64,000 bases of DNA from Halobacterium sp. CBA1132. GTDB taxonomy: Archaea; Halobacteriota; Halobacteria; Halobacteriales; Halobacteriaceae. A program made the translations under genes and the position numbers. The number at the start of each line of letters is the position of its first letter. The first letter of the stretch is position 1. The stretch lies in NCBI RefSeq assembly GCF_001485535.1, contig NZ_BCMZ01000002.1, forward strand, positions 1-64,000, written 5' to 3'. The notes under the pieces were generated by a model that worked only from the letters and a program-made list of their open reading frames with translations, made no database searches and was not told the DNA's origin. Shown here in pieces: positions 2,774 to 17,619 of this stretch.

Positions 2774-3390
2774 CAGTGCTCCCCCTCCCGGGGCTCGATG
2801 AGGCCGTTGCTTTCTTCGGCGAGTTCCCGGATTACCCGTTCCACGTCAGCCTCTTCGGCAACCGTCCGATGTGCGAGCGGGGCAGGATATGCACGGTCGC
2901 CCTGGCTGCAGAGAACCACCAGCCACTCGTCGCTTCCATCCCCGAGTACGATGTAGTGGTCGCGATCAGCGCGCTGGAAGACCCGCCGGTCCGGGCGAGA
3001 GACGGGTCGCCAGTTCTCGGGGAGCGTCGGTGACGGCCGTCCACCGTCGGGGAGCGCGACGACGTCGTCGGTAAGGGTCGCCATCGCGGCGTCGATCTTC
3101 TCGCCGGTGAGGTGCCAGCACGCCGCTGAACCGTCGCACTCCAGCTGCGAGACCACCTGATTCCGGAACGCGATGTAGTGCTCACGGGCGAACTGCTCAT
3201 CGTCGTAGTAGTCGAGCAGGAGTGCGCACGCGAGCTGGGCGGGCCCGCTACCACTATACCCGATCTCGAAACCACTCGGACTGTGATTGACAATATCGAG
3301 ACTTCGGTCGGGAGTGAGCTCCTCATCGTCAGGAAGGCGGGTAACAACGAGGTCTCCTTGCCGACGCCGGCCGACGTATGCAGTCGTCAT
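2773..3390 (-). CDS. DUF6166-type haloarchaeal protein
   Basis: The product is 205 aa. It opens with YVGRRRQGDLVVTRL and contains the hallmark SLDIVNHSPSGFEIGYSGSG followed by PAQLACALLLDYY, which I recognise as the DUF6166 pattern of haloarchaeal accessory proteins. The molecular function of the family is unknown. The gene overlaps the upstream HNH gene by four bases (ATGA) and the downstream 36-aa gene by one base, so the three form a tight operon. A truncated paralogue lies at 4551-4760. Confidence 0.75.
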   Translation of the reverse strand: MTTAYVGRRRQGDLVVTRLPDDEELTPDRSLDIVNHSPSGFEIGYSGSGPAQLACALLLDYYDDEQFAREHYIAFRNQVVSQLECDGSAACWHLTGEKIDAAMATLTDDVVALPDGGRPSPTLPENWRPVSRPDRRVFQRADRDHYIVLGDGSDEWLVVLCSQGDRAYPAPLAHRTVAEEADVERVIRELAEESNGLIEPREGEH

Positions 3391-3872
3391 TTGAATCGCC
3401 CCCGTTCGTCCCGGTCGCGATCAGAGACGTCCCTCTCGTGGTCGGTTGGTTTAATCTCGGACCCGAAGCCGTGTCGTTCGGCGTGTTTGGAGCGACTGAG
3501 TAGCTCGAGGTTCTCTGGCCTGTTGTCCCACCGGACGCCATTTTTATGATGAACGTGCTTGTTCGCGACAGTGTCGAATCCGCGTTCTGCCACCATTACG
3601 AGTCGGTGAATCCCGACGGAGTCCGTCGTCCCTCGATAGTTCGACGCGCAGATGACGTAGCCACGGTCGGTGAAGACTGCGGGATGCCGTCGACGGTTCG
3701 GGGCTGCCTCCCGTGCGTCCCGACGAGGGATGTCGAATCGCTGCATCCACTTCGAGACCGTCTGCTGTGTACAGCCCAGTTTGTCCGCAATCTTGACCGT
3801 GCTCAACTCCTGTTCCCAGTAGAGTTCGTAGAGGAGCGATTCGTCTCGCCAGGGGTACTCTGAATCGGTCAT
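3387..3872 (-). CDS. HTH-HNH endonuclease
   Basis: The product is 161 aa. Residues about 15-50 form a resolvase/homeodomain-like helix-turn-helix (LSTVKIADKLGCTQQTVSKW). It is followed by an HNH nuclease core with HVHHKNGVRWDNRPENLELL and SKHAERHG. This arrangement is typical of phage or mobile HNH nucleases, in which the HTH positions the nuclease. It is the first gene of the operon with DUF6166 and is preceded by the shared GC-rich leader element at 3895-3923. Mobility or homing is inferred; cleavage specificity cannot be read from the sequence. Confidence 0.85.
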   Translation of the reverse strand: MTDSEYPWRDESLLYELYWEQELSTVKIADKLGCTQQTVSKWMQRFDIPRRDAREAAPNRRRHPAVFTDRGYVICASNYRGTTDSVGIHRLVMVAERGFDTVANKHVHHKNGVRWDNRPENLELLSRSKHAERHGFGSEIKPTDHERDVSDRDRDERGRFK

Positions 3873-4816: not shown

Positions 4817-4878
4817 AGGACGGCGTAGCGTTCGGCAACGTATTTGGCAGTTGCAACGTACTGTCCACATAATTGAGG

Positions 4879-6243
4879 ATGGCTGTACTGGACGATCTCT
4901 CGGGGTTCGAGTTCGAGGACGTGATGGAGGACGTGTTCCGGAACCTCGGCTACGAGAACGTCCGCCAGGCCGACCGCACGGCTGACGAGGGTCGCGACGT
5001 CATCATGGAGGAGGTCGTCGACGGCACCCGGCGCGCGATCATCGTCGAGTGCAAGCACACGGGGACGGTCGGGCGGCCGGTCGTCCAGAAGCTCCACTCG
5101 GCGATCGCGACGTTCGACTTCGACGGCCCGAAACGCGGAATGGTCGTCACGACCGGCCGGTTCACGAATCCCGCTCAGGAGTACGCCGACCGCCTCCAGC
5201 AGAACGACGACCCACATCCAATCGAGTTGCTCGACGGCGAAGACCTCCGAGAGATCGCCGACGAGATCGGCCTCGACCTCTACAACGGGCGCATCGAGAT
5301 TCTCTGCGACGAGACGCTCCGCCCGCACGACCCGGCTGCCGACGTCGACGCGCCCGTCATCGAGGCGTTCCGCGACATTGAGAACATCGAGGCCGCCGAC
5401 CTCCCAGAACCCCACTCGTCGGTGACGTTCCGCCCGGTGGTCGCTGTCACCGCGGACACGAACGCCGTCTTCGAGACGTCGGTGGGCGTCATCCACCGGA
5501 TCAACGACCGGACCCGATTCGTTGCCCACGCCGAACGCGGGCAGCCGAAGATCGTCAACGAAGACGCCGCAACGCTGGTCACCGAGAACCTTCACGCGAC
5601 GGTCGACCTCGATACCGAGCAGTTCGCGGAGGTGTTCGATGACGTCGAGGAGCGCCGGTTCGGGCAGACCCAAACCGAGTACAAGGAGTGGGCCGTCGAG
5701 CGGCTCCAGCAGCATCACACGACGACGGTCACCTACACCGGCGACAACAACGTCACGTACAACAAGACCTGTGAGCCGAACCGCTCGGACATCTCCGTTC
5801 AGTCGATCGAACCGGTGTATCTCCCCGAGGTTCGCCAGACGACCGAACTCCAGGCGTACACCTACCCCTACGAGTATTACGCGGCAGGCCCGTCACGAGT
5901 AACCGCCGAGGATGGCATCCATCAGTGCGTCCACTGTGACACGAGCGGCGTCGACGAGACGTACACCTACTGTCCGAACTGCGGGGCAATCGCCTGCTCC
6001 AGCCACATCAAAACGGAGCGGCTGGAAGGCGAGCCGGTCTGTACGGTGTGTGCGGTGACGGAACGGTTCGCGCTGAAGACGAGGTACTTCTACGACGAGG
6101 AGAACCTCGAAGCGTTCCGCGAGGAGTACGCCGACATGCCGCTTCACGAGAAGGCGATGGAGAACAAGATACTGGCCGGGGGGAGCGTGGTTGCGACGCT
6201 GCTGCTCGTGGTCGGACTGCTCGTCTTCGGAGGCATCATCTGA
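4879..6243 (+). CDS. Mrr-type nuclease with zinc ribbon and C-terminal TM helix
   Basis: The ATG at 4879 (MAVLDDLSGFEFEDVMEDVF) is preferred over the TTG six bases earlier; the product is 454 aa. Residues about 1-125 form an Mrr domain with DEGRDVIMEEV and AIIVECKHTG, giving D and E-x-K of the PD-(D/E)XK site, here E rather than the Q of many Mrr proteins. A middle beta-rich region follows. Near 350-390 is a double zinc ribbon (CVHCDT, CPNCG, CTVCA). The last ~20 residues form a hydrophobic helix (VVATLLLVVGLLVFGGII). A nuclease tethered at its C-terminus with a zinc domain suggests a membrane-located DNA defence or degradation enzyme. No methylase is present. Confidence 0.82.
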   Translation: MAVLDDLSGFEFEDVMEDVFRNLGYENVRQADRTADEGRDVIMEEVVDGTRRAIIVECKHTGTVGRPVVQKLHSAIATFDFDGPKRGMVVTTGRFTNPAQEYADRLQQNDDPHPIELLDGEDLREIADEIGLDLYNGRIEILCDETLRPHDPAADVDAPVIEAFRDIENIEAADLPEPHSSVTFRPVVAVTADTNAVFETSVGVIHRINDRTRFVAHAERGQPKIVNEDAATLVTENLHATVDLDTEQFAEVFDDVEERRFGQTQTEYKEWAVERLQQHHTTTVTYTGDNNVTYNKTCEPNRSDISVQSIEPVYLPEVRQTTELQAYTYPYEYYAAGPSRVTAEDGIHQCVHCDTSGVDETYTYCPNCGAIACSSHIKTERLEGEPVCTVCAVTERFALKTRYFYDEENLEAFREEYADMPLHEKAMENKILAGGSVVATLLLVVGLLVFGGII

Positions 6244-6512
6244 GCGGGTTCGATGTGGCTCACTGTCTTGGTCCACTCGTTCGACGAATCGTAGAAGTAC
6301 TTCGTGTTGACATCATCGAACATTGCCGGCGCACACGCGCCGTCACCCTTTACGGCGCAAAACAACATCACAAAACCGATTCTGCGGTCGGCTTACTATG
6401 GTGATGCAACTTAGGTTATATATGTCTGATAGAACAGGGCTGCTAAATCAGGAAGCTAGGTCTTGGACTTCATTAATGGAAAACTGTATTGAGCCAGTCA
6501 ACCCTACCGGGC
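6244..6512. other. Convergent AT-rich spacer with possible gene remnant
   Basis: This gap separates two convergent genes. On the minus strand about 6255-6330 reads FDDVNTKYFYDSSNEWTKTV, which looks protein-like but has no intact frame. From about 6400 the base composition shifts to AT-rich, marking the edge of the island that carries the next gene. No RNA gene is seen. Confidence 0.35.
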
Positions 6513-8186
6513 CTATACACCGCCTGTCAGAACGCTATAGAAAATATCCTCATCATTCTCGATCCATTGATACAATTCTAAGTCAGTAAGGAAACGTACT
6601 CCCTGTTTTTCCAAGTACGACGGCGTAAAGTTAGACACAACGAGCAACTCAAATTCGCCCTCGATCCATTCTTCGGGAACCTGAATCTGCCTCCGGTCGG
6701 ACTCATCACGGGTTACTTGGTGGGAAATTTTAGCACTGGCATCTAAATTTCGCCATGCTTCAACCTTCTCTGGAAATGGCTTCCCCCCACGATTAGTTCC
6801 TTGCTTGAAGATTTTCTCGTTGAACGCCTGATTTACGTTCTCAATCCCTTCCTGCGTTTGCATATTGAGTTTCGGAAGCATGAACTTCGATTCGACGAAA
6901 TATACTGTCCCATCTTTCCTGAAGACTGTATCAATCTCTTTCCCGCTCTGTTTCGATGTTTTACAGCTGTGATATGCGGCACAGGTCGTTTCAGCCAGGA
7001 ATTCGTATACGTACCTCTCGAAACTCTCACCACGTCTTTCAGTCAACGCAGCAAGAGCTCTCGTGCTCGTTTCTAAATCTCCGTTCTCGAGGAAGGGGAA
7101 CAATTGCATTTTGACCAGTTGAGAGAACTGATCAGGGTAGATAATGCGCTTATGAGGGACTTTCCGGGTCCTACGACCACCCCTGACCTCCATCGCTTTT
7201 GTCCCGGATATCTTAAAAAACAGCGGGTGAGCATCTGTGTTTTCCGGGCTGAGCGTGATTGAGGGTTTAACATCTTCCCACGAATCCCCGAACACTCCTT
7301 TACCTATATCATCAAACTTGTGTTCGGGAATACTAATTGCCCGGAAATCACCCGGATCAGCTTCTGCAATTGTCGATTGGACGGCCTCTGTCATTTTATC
7401 GAGGAGTTCTTCCAAGTCGAATATCGTTACCGAATCGGGGAAGTCGGTAGTGAACGCGTCACTCACAGTCTCGTCAAGTGCTGAGGTGAATCCGAGACTT
7501 ACCTGAAGACCATACCAGTGATCTACCCAGTCTCGGACGCTATCTATCTCGTCTTTGTCTGGTCGATCGAATGACCGGAAAACCACCTCCTTCAACATGA
7601 AATCCTCTCGGATTTCCTCTCTTGCTCCGATATTGGCTCTCAGACACCGTTCCGAACAAAGCCAGTATTCGGAATGAGGGAACTGAAAATCTGCAAAAAA
7701 ATCTTTCCACGATCCGTGAATGGGCGTCAACTCGATTGGAATACTAAACTCCTCTTGGACCTGGTTTAGGACTGTGATTAGCCCGGTTGCGTCGTTGAGA
7801 AATGCTTCGACCCTCTCGTGGAGCTCTTCCTGTACGTGAGCGTTTTGTGGATCAAAGTGGTCATTAAATCGGTCTGTATTCTCATATACTGCTTTTATAA
7901 CCGGGAGTGAGTGAAAGAACTTTGTCACAGACAGTCGGTTGTCGGCAATCATACCGGCGGCTCCCTTATTAAGTTCAAATGTGAGTGTTCCAATCACTCG
8001 GAACGTGCCGTATTCCTCCAAGAGCAGGAGTAATTCATCGTGGTTGAGGTACTGTTGTTGAATCTCAGCGGCTTGCTGTTTGATCCAGTCTAAGTCAGCG
8101 ACAGGGAGTTGGAGGCATTTCGGGCAGTAGAGGATGTCTTTTTCCTCGTGGTAGACAAGTGTTTGTTCACAGTAGGGGCAGGGCAT
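6513..8186 (-). CDS. Orphan zinc-ribbon PD-(D/E)XK nuclease
   Basis: The product is 557 aa and begins with a zinc ribbon (CPYC at 3-6, CPKC near 21-24). It has a long central region of unrecognised helical fold containing CSERCLRANIG. The C-terminal nuclease-like domain starts at about 390 with RGESFERYVYEFLAETT, followed by KEIDTVF and TVYFVESKF: an E, a D and E-x-K in the right order and spacing for a PD-(D/E)XK fold. The base composition is clearly AT-richer than the neighbours, indicating recent acquisition. It stands alone between a Mrr nuclease and accessory genes, so a defence role is plausible but unproven. I do not recognise the full-length family. Confidence 0.7.
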   Translation of the reverse strand: MPCPYCEQTLVYHEEKDILYCPKCLQLPVADLDWIKQQAAEIQQQYLNHDELLLLLEEYGTFRVIGTLTFELNKGAAGMIADNRLSVTKFFHSLPVIKAVYENTDRFNDHFDPQNAHVQEELHERVEAFLNDATGLITVLNQVQEEFSIPIELTPIHGSWKDFFADFQFPHSEYWLCSERCLRANIGAREEIREDFMLKEVVFRSFDRPDKDEIDSVRDWVDHWYGLQVSLGFTSALDETVSDAFTTDFPDSVTIFDLEELLDKMTEAVQSTIAEADPGDFRAISIPEHKFDDIGKGVFGDSWEDVKPSITLSPENTDAHPLFFKISGTKAMEVRGGRRTRKVPHKRIIYPDQFSQLVKMQLFPFLENGDLETSTRALAALTERRGESFERYVYEFLAETTCAAYHSCKTSKQSGKEIDTVFRKDGTVYFVESKFMLPKLNMQTQEGIENVNQAFNEKIFKQGTNRGGKPFPEKVEAWRNLDASAKISHQVTRDESDRRQIQVPEEWIEGEFELLVVSNFTPSYLEKQGVRFLTDLELYQWIENDEDIFYSVLTGGV

Positions 8187-8354
8187 TGGTTTGAATTCTA
8201 TATAAGGTTGAATGCTTATGATATTAATCGACTGAGATGGCTACTTAATCTACAGATGGACAAATAGAGCATTTAGCATAACGTGGAAGAGACGCGTCCT
8301 GTATTCATCCGGGTTGCTGAGAATCGCCACCTCCTGTGGATTCCATCAAGGCCG
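8187..8354. other. AT-rich intergenic region upstream of the nuclease
   Basis: This holds the promoter side of the 6513-8186 gene; T/A-rich tracts such as TATATAAGG on either strand near 8200 could serve as TATA elements. The right part returns to high GC before the next gene's 3' end. No coding frame is supported. Confidence 0.35.
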
Positions 8355-8750
8355 CTAAGCGAGATGAGACACCTCGTCTGGCTCCTCGACATCATCAAAC
8401 CCGCCACAATCGACAGGCTCCCAATCCTCACCTGGCTCCGGACTCCACCAGTCGACCTTGTAGGCGCCCGGTGCGCCGAGGATCTTCACGCGCGCCGACC
8501 CATCAGGTAGGTCGCGGCGCAGTTTCTCGTCGACGTGGAGGTTCCAGGTCGTGGCTGTATCGAAGCAGGCGAGTACGGCTTCCTCGTAGCCGCGTGTCTC
8601 TCGGGATTCCTGGAGTTCGACCTGGGTGTTGCAGTTCTTGCAGAACACCCCCTCGAAGGGGATGTGCGTGAAGACCTCCTGCCCGCAGACGGGACACCAG
8701 AGGAACTCGAACAGTGCCTCACTGTGTCGATCTAGTACTTCGAGGCTCAT
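8355..8750 (-). CDS. Haloarchaeal zinc-finger protein (DUF7567-like)
   Basis: The start is placed at the ATG giving MSLEVLDRHSEALFEFLWCP, although the frame stays open further upstream; the product is 131 aa. Two CxxC pairs (CPVCG and CKNCN, about 20 residues apart) form a zinc ribbon. The rest is acidic, with tryptophan-rich WWSPEPGEDWEPVDCGGF at the end. I recognise it as a conserved small protein of haloarchaeal plasmids, probably the DUF7567 family. No function is known. It is usually grouped with the next two genes, as here. Confidence 0.75.
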   Translation of the reverse strand: MSLEVLDRHSEALFEFLWCPVCGQEVFTHIPFEGVFCKNCNTQVELQESRETRGYEEAVLACFDTATTWNLHVDEKLRRDLPDGSARVKILGAPGAYKVDWWSPEPGEDWEPVDCGGFDDVEEPDEVSHLA

Positions 8751-8797
8751 TGGTTGACTCACCCGGTCGTCCCGGGCCACCACCTCGTACCCGGCCG

Positions 8798-8816
8798 AAA
8801 AACAGCGCCCAGCGCT
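8798..8816 (-). terminator. Hairpin plus T-run
   Basis: On the minus strand AGCGC-TGG-GCGCT is followed by GTTTTT, eight bases after the stop of the 8824-9189 gene. This is a plausible archaeal terminator separating that gene from the downstream 8355-8750 gene. The T-run may alternatively belong to the promoter of the downstream gene. Confidence 0.45.
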
Positions 8817-8823
8817 CACTCCC

Positions 8824-9189
8824 TCACCGCTCAGCGCCGTAGACGATGCGTGAGGGGGCTTCGTACCCACAGTCGGGGCAGTCGTAACATCGCTGGACTT
8901 TCGCCCCGTCTGCTGACTTCTCGCCGACGCGAACGTCGTCGTTCGGACACTCCGGGCAGCTGAGGTCCGGAGCCGGCCGCTCCCGAAGCTCGTCACGGAA
9001 CGACGTCGCGTCCTTCGTCTCATACCCTCGCGACCACACCGGGTAGCCGTCGACAAGGATGGCTCCGCGCCACTTGTACCGGTAGGAGTCTGGCGCTCTG
9101 TGCATGACAGCCCGAGCGCCGGTCTCGGTGTTCCGATACGCGAGTGTCGGCGAGCGGCTCTCGCGTCGCCAGTTGGTGATGGGAGGCAT
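8824..9189 (-). CDS. Haloarchaeal zinc-ribbon protein (DUF7568-like)
   Basis: The product is 121 aa, beginning MPPITNWRRESRSPTLAYRN, with RYKWRGAILVDGYPVW in the middle and a C-terminal four-cysteine zinc ribbon (CPECPN, then CYDCPDCGYE). It belongs to a conserved haloarchaeal family, probably DUF7568. It lies three bases downstream of the 9193-9684 gene and is probably co-transcribed with it. A decayed copy of the junction between these two genes sits at about 56908-56983. Confidence 0.78.
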   Translation of the reverse strand: MPPITNWRRESRSPTLAYRNTETGARAVMHRAPDSYRYKWRGAILVDGYPVWSRGYETKDATSFRDELRERPAPDLSCPECPNDDVRVGEKSADGAKVQRCYDCPDCGYEAPSRIVYGAER

Positions 9190-9192
9190 TAT

Positions 9193-9684
9193 TCAGAAGT
9201 GGACGTCAGCGGGTACGATCCAGAGCTCTTCACTCTCCTCGAGGAGTCGATCCAGCTGTCCACGGTGGCGAATGCCGGTTCCGTGTTCGGTGTACAGGAA
9301 GATCGTCGGGCCATCGTACGCACCGACCTGATGGAAGGCGTGCCGAGCGAGATCTTCGTCGCGCATGATCTCCTCGTCTGAGAGCTCTTCGATGGCCTCT
9401 TTCACCCGGTCGAGATTGCGCTCGAACTCTTCCTTCGTCGCCTCCCAGCCACGCTCGAGGAGGTCTTCGCCGTCATCGGAGTCGACGGGGGCTGCCGTCG
9501 GCAACTCCCCCCATCGTGCCTTCCCCGCAACGGACGTGTCCTCCCCGTCGAAGGTCACATAGTAATCGAAGACGGCGCTGGCGTGTGGGTCCGCGCCGAC
9601 CAGGCGGTCGAACACCGAATTTCCGGTGGCCAGTGCGTCGTCGTGGGTCGATTCTTCTACCAGAGCGTAAATTACCATGTGCAT
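9193..9684 (-). CDS. Conserved acidic haloarchaeal protein
   Basis: The frame is longer, but the internal ATG giving MHMVIYALVEESTHDDALAT is chosen because GAGGTG stands 8 nt upstream as a ribosome-binding site and the earlier residues look spurious. The product is 163 aa, acidic, and ends ESEELWIVPADVHF. It is a conserved haloarchaeal accessory family (possibly DUF7995) of unknown function. The coding-strand region 9735-9775 has a TTTTT tract followed by a GC-rich hairpin containing GGGTGCCGGCG, resembling the shared leader element in layout. Confidence 0.72.
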   Translation of the reverse strand: MHMVIYALVEESTHDDALATGNSVFDRLVGADPHASAVFDYYVTFDGEDTSVAGKARWGELPTAAPVDSDDGEDLLERGWEATKEEFERNLDRVKEAIEELSDEEIMRDEDLARHAFHQVGAYDGPTIFLYTEHGTGIRHRGQLDRLLEESEELWIVPADVHF

Positions 9685-9790
9685 CTCGAACACCTCGAAA
9701 CGCCGACGCACCGGGAGTGATTGCTCGCTCGCTCCAGCTGCGCCGGCACCCATCGCCGGCGCTCGAAAAACCTGATCTAGCGGTCGATTT

Positions 9791-10213
9791 TTAGGACTCG
9801 TTCGCTCGGTCGACTGTGATGGTTAGATCGCCCGACGCGTAGTCGGCCTCGAAGTCGACCGCGAACGCGTCCGCCTCGTAGGCGGCGTGGTAGGCGCGGT
9901 GGCGTTCGAGCGAGCCTGTCGCCTTGAAGTGGAAGAACGCAGCCGACGTGTAGGGCTTACTCTGCGTCTCGATTTGCGTTTCGACTGACGCCGGAAGTGC
10001 GATCTGTGGCGTGTCGGTGTCAACACTCGCAGCGAACTCCTTTGCCTCCTTGACGGTCGCCTGCGAATGGGCGGGCGTCTCACCGGTTACCACGTTCATC
10101 GGCGTCTCCGTGTCGTCGGTGAACAGGACATCGTGGAAGGTGCGCGTCCCGAGGACTGCGTCAGGACCTAACTCGCAATCGTGGAATGGATCGTCGTCTG
10201 GATTCTCGGGCAT
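9791..10213 (-). CDS. Acidic hypothetical protein
   Basis: The ATG at 10213 gives MPENPDDDPFHDCELGPDAV; an upstream TTG is less likely. The product is 140 aa, strongly acidic, with no cysteine motif, signal or TM helix. Haloarchaeal composition supports it as real, and it probably leads the run of minus-strand genes down to 8355. The promoter region shows GTTTGTC followed by a GAGCCCCA/TGGGCTC hairpin, a possible diverged leader element. The function is unknown. Confidence 0.65.
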   Translation of the reverse strand: MPENPDDDPFHDCELGPDAVLGTRTFHDVLFTDDTETPMNVVTGETPAHSQATVKEAKEFAASVDTDTPQIALPASVETQIETQSKPYTSAAFFHFKATGSLERHRAYHAAYEADAFAVDFEADYASGDLTITVDRANES

Positions 10214-10334
10214 CAAATCACGAGCCCACGGTGGGGCTCAGTCCTTTCTGCCCCAGACAAACCACAACTTGTCTCGATGTAGCGGAGGTAAGTCCCGAAA
10301 AAAGAGCGTCCTGCCCGCACTTCCCGCCGCAGAA

Positions 10335-14847: not shown

Positions 14848-15813
14848 ATGGTTGAGGTAACGGGTATCGGCGTTTATAGCTGTGTCAAAACGGAAGGTGA
14901 CGGTAACCCTGATCCTTCAACGGTAGGCGTCCTCGAAAACGAGGATTTTAACGATGACGCCGGCGCCGAGGCCTCCCGTATCTGTGAGGAGCTCATCGAT
15001 ACGGCACTTGGAAAGAAATACGGAGAATCTAAGAGTGCCAGGAACCACCGGTTCAGCGCTGAAGCCGAAGTGGAGCGATCCGATGATGGGGAATCAGTTC
15101 TCGATGTACTCGAGGAAGTCAGAAACGACGGGGATCTTGAGAAGTATAGCAAACATATTGCTGACTGGTATATCACCGAAATCCAATCTCGTTCTGACCT
15201 AATCATAGTCGCACCGTTCGAAGAACACGACCGCGAATTTGTGGCGGTGATTAAGACCCCGTTCCTCCCTGATGCACACGAAATCGATACCGACGAAATG
15301 TTCGTCGAGCACGAGCGAATTATCCGGGAAGAAACAGACAAGAGCATCATCTACCCCTTTTATGATGAATTTGAGGATGAGGCGGACTCTGATCGAGCGC
15401 GCGTATATCAACGGGATGGCAGTCAACACTACGCGAAATACTGGTGGCGATTTCTCCGACTCGAAGAAGAGAAACACCCTGACGAACTCGTAGAGAACTC
15501 CCTTGGTCAGCGGATGGACGAAGGGGATGGAGAGTTCGATTCGTTGGATGACTTCACCGAATTTGTCGCAGAAGAGTTCGACACCGAGGTCGGACAGGAG
15601 GCAACGGTTTCGGTAGAGATCGCGAATACCTCCTTCCAAATTCCACTGAGTGAATTTCAGCAACAAGAAAACGTGCAATTGGCGAAAGAAGGTAATACGT
15701 ACTATGTCGTTCTATCGGGAACACAACCACAGATGACGGTCGGGTCCGGGAGAAATAAACGCAGCGTGTTCGATGAAATTGACGATTTGCCGCACCCCAG
15801 CGACCTCTTCTAA
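14848..15813 (+). CDS. Unrecognised acidic cytoplasmic protein, gene 1 of AT-rich operon
   Basis: The product is 321 aa. I do not recognise the family with confidence. The segment SDLIIVAPFEEHDREFVAVI followed by HERIIREETDKSIIYPFYDE resembles the middle of NdpA/YejK-like or KwaB-like proteins, but the match is weak and no catalytic motif is obvious. No TM helix or signal is seen. A strong TATA-like element (GATATAATAC at about 14816-14825) precedes the start with nearly leaderless spacing. The gene is AT-richer than its surroundings and is followed after 6 nt by the membrane protein gene, so the two form one operon, probably acquired as a unit. Confidence 0.75.
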   Translation: MVEVTGIGVYSCVKTEGDGNPDPSTVGVLENEDFNDDAGAEASRICEELIDTALGKKYGESKSARNHRFSAEAEVERSDDGESVLDVLEEVRNDGDLEKYSKHIADWYITEIQSRSDLIIVAPFEEHDREFVAVIKTPFLPDAHEIDTDEMFVEHERIIREETDKSIIYPFYDEFEDEADSDRARVYQRDGSQHYAKYWWRFLRLEEEKHPDELVENSLGQRMDEGDGEFDSLDDFTEFVAEEFDTEVGQEATVSVEIANTSFQIPLSEFQQQENVQLAKEGNTYYVVLSGTQPQMTVGSGRNKRSVFDEIDDLPHPSDLF

Positions 15814-15819
15814 CTGAGT

Positions 15820-17619
15820 ATGTCTGCTGAAGTTACTGAAGTATTGCAACAGGTACAGGCCCTTGAGTCCGAGGGAGAGGTAGAAACAACGTTAGCCGAC
15901 ATCGGGTTTACCGTTACAGCCTCCGATCTTGACAGAAACGATTTTATTAGCGTAGTAAAGGCCGTTCACAACCATCCTGAGTGGTTTACGGATTTCGAAC
16001 TCCGATGTAGTTCCCCCACAATCCGGCTCTTTGGGAAAAGTGGGACAGGGGTCATGACACATAGTGATGGATTTGAGGAACTCACCGAATTAGACTTATC
16101 TACCGACCACGACAGAGCTGAGCGCGGTTTCAACAACTACCGTGATTCAGATATTGAGCGAGCAGCTGAGTTCGCTTATACACTTGTTAACGGTCTTCAC
16201 AACGATGACGGCCAAAGCGTTACACTCACAGGTATTGTAGACAAATCGGCTATTGAGGAAGAGCTGGTATCGACGTTTCCAAGCGTCCTTCAGGGCGAGA
16301 TTTCCGTGTTCCTCTGGCCTGATCCAGATACTCTTGGCCAGTGGATCGAGACCAAGTCGATTACTGATGTAATTGATGCATTTTTTGCGTTCGAGAAACT
16401 GCCTATATTCGTCTTTGAAAGCTCTGTCACTCCTATTTTCGGTGCCTCGGTTGTAACATCCTTAGAGGATATCAACGAACTGGGGGGCGAGGAACTTGCT
16501 GATGGTCGTGACAAGTATCAGGAGGCTATGCAGTGTGCCCGAGAGAGCACCGTTTGGCACGACGATCTATCTCCGGTTCCTCCAGCAGCTGTAATCTCGG
16601 TCATTGACCTGATTTCTGGATTCCGTCCTGTACTCGTGTACAGCGTTTTCGGGGTGTTCTCTTCGGCAGTTGAATCCAGAAACGGCTTGATTAAGTTCAT
16701 AGTCACTTCAGAGCCGACAACCTTTACAAAACAGGTCAATCCTCATGAAGTGAGTCAAGACTACGATTCATCCGCAATCGAAGGACTCGTATCTGCATAC
16801 GAGATCTATGCGGAACATGAGGATAAGGCGGCGTTCCGGGATTTTTGGCGACTTGCAATTGCTAACACCTGCGATGATTTACTCGACTTGCCGAACCACG
16901 TTGACGAGGTAAGGGACTACTACAGGGATTTGCAGGTTGATGCTATCGAGAAGAACTTCGACGACCTGAGCGACGCGATTCAGCAAATTCATTCCTTTAT
17001 GACCGGGCTGACGAACCGGGTTTCTGACGCGGCCACTCAGCTATCCCGCCAGATTCAGACTCTGTTGTTCACGCTCATCGGTACAATCATAGCGAATCTC
17101 TTTCTCGTTCTACGCTGGAACAACGTCACCTACGTACCACCATTCAGCCTGTTCATCCTCGCTGTACTGGTCGGCTTCTATTTCCCGCTAATTCAAGATC
17201 GGATTGAAGACCTGTCCGAACTGCGGAAGGAGGTTGAGAAAGATTATGAGATGTATGAAGCTGAGATTCGACGATTTAGCGAGCAGATTTTTGACTTCGA
17301 GGAGTTAGAAGGACGAAAGGATTCCTACATCAGAATAGCGAAGAAGAAGGAGGGATGGGCACAGGATCGGCTAGATCTGATATTCCGGTTATTGATGACC
17401 ATTTGGGGGGGTTTAGCAATCTGGTCTTTTGTTGGTTATGAGGCTGTGAGTATGCAGACCATCGTAGGCATCGTGTCTCTAGTCGGATTGATCGGTATCT
17501 GGTACTACCACTCTAATAACGAATATTTCGATTTACGGTACATGGTTGGATGTGTTGCCGTAAGTTTAGGCGCTCTAGGGGTACGAATCCTAATGGTACT
17601 CGGGATTGGGGGGTTCTAA
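15820..17619 (+). CDS. Large protein with C-terminal four-helix membrane domain, gene 2 of AT-rich operon
   Basis: The product is 599 aa. Residues 1 to about 405 are soluble and mixed alpha/beta, with no recognised motif. Two TM helices follow (LLFTLIGTIIANLFLVL and FSLFILAVLVGFYFPL), then a charged coiled coil (about 455-510, RIEDLSELRKEVEKDYEMYE), and two to three more TM helices to the C-terminus. This soluble sensor plus paired-TM effector layout recalls membrane-disrupting defence effectors, but no known domain was identified. It is AT-rich and tightly coupled to the 321-aa gene. Confidence 0.75.
   Translation: MSAEVTEVLQQVQALESEGEVETTLADIGFTVTASDLDRNDFISVVKAVHNHPEWFTDFELRCSSPTIRLFGKSGTGVMTHSDGFEELTELDLSTDHDRAERGFNNYRDSDIERAAEFAYTLVNGLHNDDGQSVTLTGIVDKSAIEEELVSTFPSVLQGEISVFLWPDPDTLGQWIETKSITDVIDAFFAFEKLPIFVFESSVTPIFGASVVTSLEDINELGGEELADGRDKYQEAMQCARESTVWHDDLSPVPPAAVISVIDLISGFRPVLVYSVFGVFSSAVESRNGLIKFIVTSEPTTFTKQVNPHEVSQDYDSSAIEGLVSAYEIYAEHEDKAAFRDFWRLAIANTCDDLLDLPNHVDEVRDYYRDLQVDAIEKNFDDLSDAIQQIHSFMTGLTNRVSDAATQLSRQIQTLLFTLIGTIIANLFLVLRWNNVTYVPPFSLFILAVLVGFYFPLIQDRIEDLSELRKEVEKDYEMYEAEIRRFSEQIFDFEELEGRKDSYIRIAKKKEGWAQDRLDLIFRLLMTIWGGLAIWSFVGYEAVSMQTIVGIVSLVGLIGIWYYHSNNEYFDLRYMVGCVAVSLGALGVRILMVLGIGGF

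Follow-up and report, generated by a model that had tools for sequence, protein, structure and literature searches.

A mobile zinc-ribbon nuclease of archaea, probably a one-gene defence protein, whose predicted fold resembles the C-terminal half of anti-phage Upx

Which function can be assigned to a haloarchaeal protein of 557 residues that starts with a zinc ribbon, ends in a nuclease-like sequence and carries between both a large region not matched by the sequence libraries? We addressed this question for a gene located in a 64-kb window, i.e. the whole stretch of DNA analysed, which starts a 283-kb contig, one of four in a haloarchaeal genome of 3.0 Mb. The gene sits on an extra replicon of this haloarchaeon.

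Domain layout, active site and family

The open reading frame was found as given in an earlier, sequence-only reading of this DNA, on the minus strand and with an ATG start. The gene, its parts and the short flanks conserved with it are as follows:

6513..8186, minus strand: whole gene, 557 aa, ATG start; zinc ribbon, helical middle and predicted PD-(D/E)XK nuclease; single-gene unit
8106..8186, minus strand: N-terminal zinc ribbon, residues 1-27 (C3, C6, C21, C24); conserved cysteines, hhalign alignment from residue 1
7068..8105, minus strand: middle region, residues 28-373, defined from the AF2 model; superposes, together with the nuclease, on Upx
6516..7067, minus strand: predicted PD-(D/E)XK nuclease domain, residues 374-557, defined from the AF2 model, conserved residues and joint-profile matches
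7017-7019, 6930-6932, 6891-6893 and 6885-6887, minus strand: codons of E390, D419, E432 and K434, respectively
8187..8276, minus strand: probable promoter, the upstream 40-90 bp being conserved with the gene; limit of the transferred unit (blastn)
6490..6512, minus strand: the ~23 bp downstream, likewise conserved; second limit of the transferred unit (blastn)

The N-terminus (MPCPYC...CPKC) contains two CxxC pairs formed by C3, C6, C21 and C24, and the C-terminal part contains E390, D419 and E432-x-K434. In the AF2 model (pLDDT 81.9, pTM 0.81) the middle region is mostly helical between residues 32 and 310, followed, after P321, by a beta hairpin (323-333, 340-350) and a helix (352-365). The modelled nuclease core comprises helix 374-400 with E390, the strands 403-410, 418-424 (with D419) and 427-434 (with E432 and K434), and helix 445-459, and it thus displays the arrangement expected for the core of the PD-(D/E)XK superfamily, a Glu in the first helix and Asp and (D/E)xK on adjacent strands. 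A joint profile matches AF1548 (1y88; E 1e-6) and Card1 (E 4e-4), so that the assignment of the core is secure independently of the comparison with Upx described below.

A Pfam search of the 557-residue protein returned no family at cut-off, and none of NCBIfam, PADLOC and PHROGs recognises it; the best of the weak library matches do not reach beyond the nuclease core and its surroundings. GapS1 (NCBIfam NF047931) shows a weak likeness to residues 386-457 (E 7e-4), at 18.5 bits compared to a cut-off of 320 and with nothing similar elsewhere in the protein, and the Mrr-like ZorD1 (PADLOC PDLC00631) matches weakly around the nuclease, at residues 345-456 (E 1e-3), differing in that the protein studied here has no helicase. 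Card1/Can2/Cdn1, the ancillary nucleases of type III CRISPR systems, as well as AF1548 and Hjc share the PD-(D/E)XK core with structural Z-scores of ~4.5-9, whereas the large N-terminal body is a different one and a CARF sensor domain was not recognised. Mrr_cat (PF04471) was rejected as an assignment for the nuclease, being absent from the Pfam matches up to E 1, and the N-terminus was not assigned to RING or any other zinc-finger family either, since Pfam gave E-values of 0.1 or worse.

The protein is not an orphan, as the sequence-only reading had it, but belongs to a patchily distributed family. Of 392 genomes of the order, 17, among them that of the window, contain full-length homologues, conserved from one end to the other and spread over 12 of 95 genera; a copy with 53% identity is found in Halorubrum tebenquichense. 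Within the window's genus two of 13 genomes carry the gene and 11 do not, the copy of the other carrier being 27% identical, and the nearest relatives are found in other families (Natronococcus, Natrialba). A phylum-wide profile search gave weak matches in methanogens, a label read off the gene content of the genomes concerned, and these led to full-length relatives of 502-616 aa (seven cases, in the class to which genome G604 belongs). They have the haloarchaeal layout of an N-terminal CxxC...CxxC, a helical body and a C-terminal E...D...(E/D)xK. At only about 12-16% sequence identity, the haloarchaeal and methanogen branches are matched by profile-profile alignment with hhalign over residues 1-439 (probability 98.7%, E 3.1e-16). 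No homologue of the protein was found in phage and viral collections, and the methanogen members used as queries found no match among bacterial plasmids.

Aligning 17 diverse members of the two branches leaves C3, C6, C21, P321, E390, D419 and K434 as the sole invariant columns, with P22, C24, L397 and E432 nearly invariant. The dN/dS ratio to the Natronococcus copy is 0.078. At the level of the sequences compared, the zinc ribbon and the predicted nuclease active site are under purifying selection. These data bear out the N-terminal zinc ribbon and the C-terminal nuclease with Asp and E-x-K residues of the sequence-only reading, to which E390 is added. Homologues lacking the catalytic residues throughout, named there as evidence against a nuclease, were not seen, the residues being kept throughout the alignment. 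Two copies are decayed, one (L008, genome G248) by an in-frame TAA and the other (L020, genome G100) being a fragment with three stops, which suggests that the gene has been gained and lost repeatedly.

Predicted fold and comparison with Upx

Structure prediction with a fold search had been proposed in the sequence-only reading, and we ranked structural matches by realigning Foldseek candidates with VIA-align 2. The best match of the haloarchaeal model is Upx (PDB 9wuf, cryo-EM), with a Z-score of 12.3 over 369 residues, placing model residues 25-541 on residues 753-1272 of the Upx chain at an rmsd of 8.0; the runner-up is FokI with a Z-score of 8.1. As helical models can reach high Z-scores by chance, we also analysed a methanogen member modelled from its own separate alignment (pLDDT 73), in which the order of elements is that of the haloarchaeal middle region. 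Its best match is again 9wuf, with a Z-score of 15.1 over 363 residues on chain residues 752-1272 and a runner-up at 9.4. That predicted models of two branches fall on one range of the Upx chain, covering body and nuclease, is hard to explain by chance. The middle of about 350 residues, which had been described as unrecognised, is indeed unmatched by the sequence libraries, but its predicted structure does superpose, together with the nuclease, on the C-terminal half of Upx. A firm match to a characterised non-nuclease family, which had likewise been named as evidence against a nuclease, is absent, the best structural match being an anti-phage PD-(D/E)XK protein.

The similarity is remote. Superposition yields 11-15% identity and an rmsd of ~8 Å, the latter being large because several domains are superposed. 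Foldseek alone gave no E-value below 0.001 and had Upx outside the top 50; PDB sequence-profile searches did not return Upx and gave no link at the level of sequence. A fold search of viral proteins gave nothing significant. No Upx model is among the PADLOC matches in the copy searched, which may lack such a model.

The name Upx reportedly comes from Gao et al. 2020. What the protein studied here shares with Upx is, according to the models, the fold of the C-terminal half, i.e. a helical body plus PD-(D/E)XK, and the organisation as one gene: Upx works as a single gene, and here the transferred unit is one gene with no conserved partner. The differences are in length, with 557 residues here compared to an Upx chain numbered to at least 1272, in the N-terminal ~750 residues of Upx, which have no counterpart here, the start of our protein aligning with about residue 750 of Upx, and in origin, our protein being archaeal with a zinc ribbon from residue 1 and Upx being bacterial. 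We therefore refer to it as Upx-like and half-length rather than as Upx, since those ~750 residues are absent; no recurring neighbour supplies an equivalent of the missing half, neither at 23 loci compared nor within 2.5 kb at 22 loci. Upx, itself encoded by one gene, has been grouped with the anti-phage systems that act by nucleic-acid degradation (PMC10855318), and in Pseudomonas PAGI-1 islands it lies within a defence hotspot (PMC12629846).

Mobility and genomic context

The AT-rich, foreign composition described in the sequence-only reading is only partly an individual feature of this gene. Its GC content is 0.473 compared to 0.595 for the window (GC3 0.518), which is foreign to the replicon, yet typical of the family, as 15 of 19 homologues are AT-richer than their own flanks as well. 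By blastn, window positions 6490-8226 are 84.7% similar to DNA of Natronococcus sp. A-GB7 (L021), and positions 6497-8276 are 85-86% similar to DNA of Natrialba sp. SSL1, where the copy, 87% identical, is split between the end of one contig (L022, reaching 8276) and the start of another (L018, from 6497), a pattern to be expected of an assembly in which the gene is present more than once. In the flanks compared, the similarity to both begins and ends ~25-90 bp from the open reading frame with hardly any beyond. An all-against-all comparison of the neighbours at 23 loci revealed nothing in common except the gene itself, and a second, more sensitive one, which took in everything up to 2.5 kb away at 22 loci, revealed only doubletons and no general partner. 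These comparisons, which include the analysis of homologue neighbourhoods proposed earlier, point to the gene moving alone, as a single-gene unit. A recent acquisition of its AT-rich DNA is supported.

As to the surroundings, the sequence-only reading had placed the gene in a run of nuclease genes with no methylase nearby. Both statements hold: there is no restriction-modification partner, no methylase recurs as a neighbour at the 23 loci, and Pfam assigns three neighbours in the window to nuclease families:

547-2592: Mrr_cat protein (E 1.5e-25)
3387-3872: HNH_3 protein (E 5e-12)
4873-6243: Mrr_cat protein (E 1.7e-26)

Both Mrr_cat proteins look membrane-anchored, one with an N-terminal hydrophobic segment and the other with a C-terminal zinc-binding cluster plus hydrophobic tail. 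On the other side of the gene, positions 8355-10262 carry DUF7567, DUF7568 and two small genes, a module 84.7% identical to one in another locus (L048:10918-12816), which also adjoins a nuclease homologue (distant, 34% identical), but on the other side and inverted; this is possibly a shared insertion hotspot. Further along, an AT-rich two-gene operon (14848-17619; GC 0.50 and 0.48) encodes a protein of 321 aa with no Pfam match and one of 599 aa whose C-terminal part is a membrane region and which weakly matches CorA in PADLOC (E 4e-5); the two could be an uncatalogued defence pair.

Relatives of the nuclease are found near defence genes of several kinds. In one methanogen locus (L055) the relative lies between a homologue of Ppl (E 4.5e-54) and Wadjet JetC (E 2.5e-140). 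This island (L055:5804-18949) consists of Ppl, a PHP-ATPase, the zinc-ribbon nuclease relative and then, on the opposite strand, a Wadjet operon with JetC and JetB/JetA-like open reading frames. Among the other loci, L056 has a BrxHII/DrmD-like SNF2 helicase nearby, L050 both an Eco57I-type methylase and a DUF4365 protein, L041 an LmuB-like ATPase, L042 a helicase that PADLOC helicase models match, and L045 a type I restriction-modification operon. In a second methanogen locus (L093:9626-16729) the relative, a 1044-aa NB-ARC/TPR protein and Cas1 (E 5.6e-67) lie within ~7 kb; this locus may be a casposon or a CRISPR edge. Ten focal regions around haloarchaeal copies matched 148 PADLOC families compared to 40 in ten control regions of the same genomes, with a handful of proteins behind each count, a comparison that is not decisive because the control regions of these genomes hold defence genes too. 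Altogether, the defence-gene context of the nuclease family is no more than suggestive.

Proposed mechanism and alternative explanations

As the predicted shape matches the rear half of Upx, the protein is probably a one-gene defence system, and we favour the reading of an archaeal defence nuclease that stands alone, moves horizontally and follows the plan of the C-terminal half of this bacterial anti-phage protein. For its defence activity, its target and its metal dependence we infer a model according to which zinc ribbon and helical body would serve in nucleic-acid binding and would sense some feature of viral or plasmid DNA entering the cell, be it a modification, a DNA end or an intermediate of replication. 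Recognition would license the C-terminal domain to cut the incoming DNA with Mg2+. Host DNA would be spared by lacking the recognised feature, not by the protection of a partner methylase: as no methylase travels with the gene, self-protection would have to lie in what is recognised rather than in host modification.

The alternative that survives best, although we consider it unlikely, is a stand-alone type IV, i.e. modification-dependent, restriction enzyme unrelated to Upx, the body of which reads a modified base, cleavage being left to the PD-(D/E)XK domain; its resemblance to Upx would then amount to no more than a helical body preceding a common nuclease fold. Consistent with this, a type II mode would be toxic with no co-occurring methylase, the nuclease resembles Mrr-like and Card1/Can2 folds too, and two Mrr_cat proteins are among the neighbours in the window. 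However, Pfam recognised no modified-base reader domain (SRA, EVE, YTH or McrB/C-type) in the window protein or in the methanogen members, although the helical body may hold a reader of a new kind, and Upx scores well above all other folds in two independent models, over body and nuclease.

Still less probable in our view is that the nuclease serves not antiviral defence but a plasmid or mobile element, be it in Holliday-junction or repair processing, in replication or in keeping out competitor plasmids. Seven PLSDB plasmids, from Halanaeroarchaeum, Haloarcula, Haloferax, Halomarina, Halobacterium and Natronosalvus, carry full-length homologues, sometimes beside ParA, PolB, MCM or integrase genes, and the nuclease core resembles Hjc and AF1548. 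But no plasmid-function neighbour is constant, the family is found on large contigs too (e.g. of 3.0 Mb and 4.5 Mb), and a large body of zinc ribbon and helices is foreign to resolvases of the Hjc type. The single-gene mobility, the sharp borders and the combination of zinc ribbon and PD-(D/E)XK, plausible for a site-specific endonuclease, would fit an enzyme with a fixed DNA site, either an orphan type II restriction enzyme or a selfish nuclease of the homing type, but this reading is very improbable, as a cognate methylase is not a constant partner at the loci examined and close relatives carry the gene at different insertion sites, not within a conserved gene or intron.

Returning to the favoured defence nuclease, we give about even chances to a more far-reaching model in which the Upx fold has in this family its first archaeal branch, a complete immune nuclease, encoded with its own sensor in one gene, from or towards which the larger bacterial Upx was built by gain or loss of an N-terminal module, and which, uncatalogued, is passed between haloarchaeal plasmids as a minimal cassette of one gene. 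None of the libraries searched has a name for the family, current defence catalogues miss it, and few stand-alone antiviral nucleases have been described in haloarchaea. The established Haloferax and Haloarcula virus systems offer the possibility to test the 557-residue protein. If functional, it would carry the Upx fold into the archaea, would make the C-terminal half alone an immune unit and would provide a small protein, of about 557 aa, for studying sensing and cutting without the extra 750 residues.
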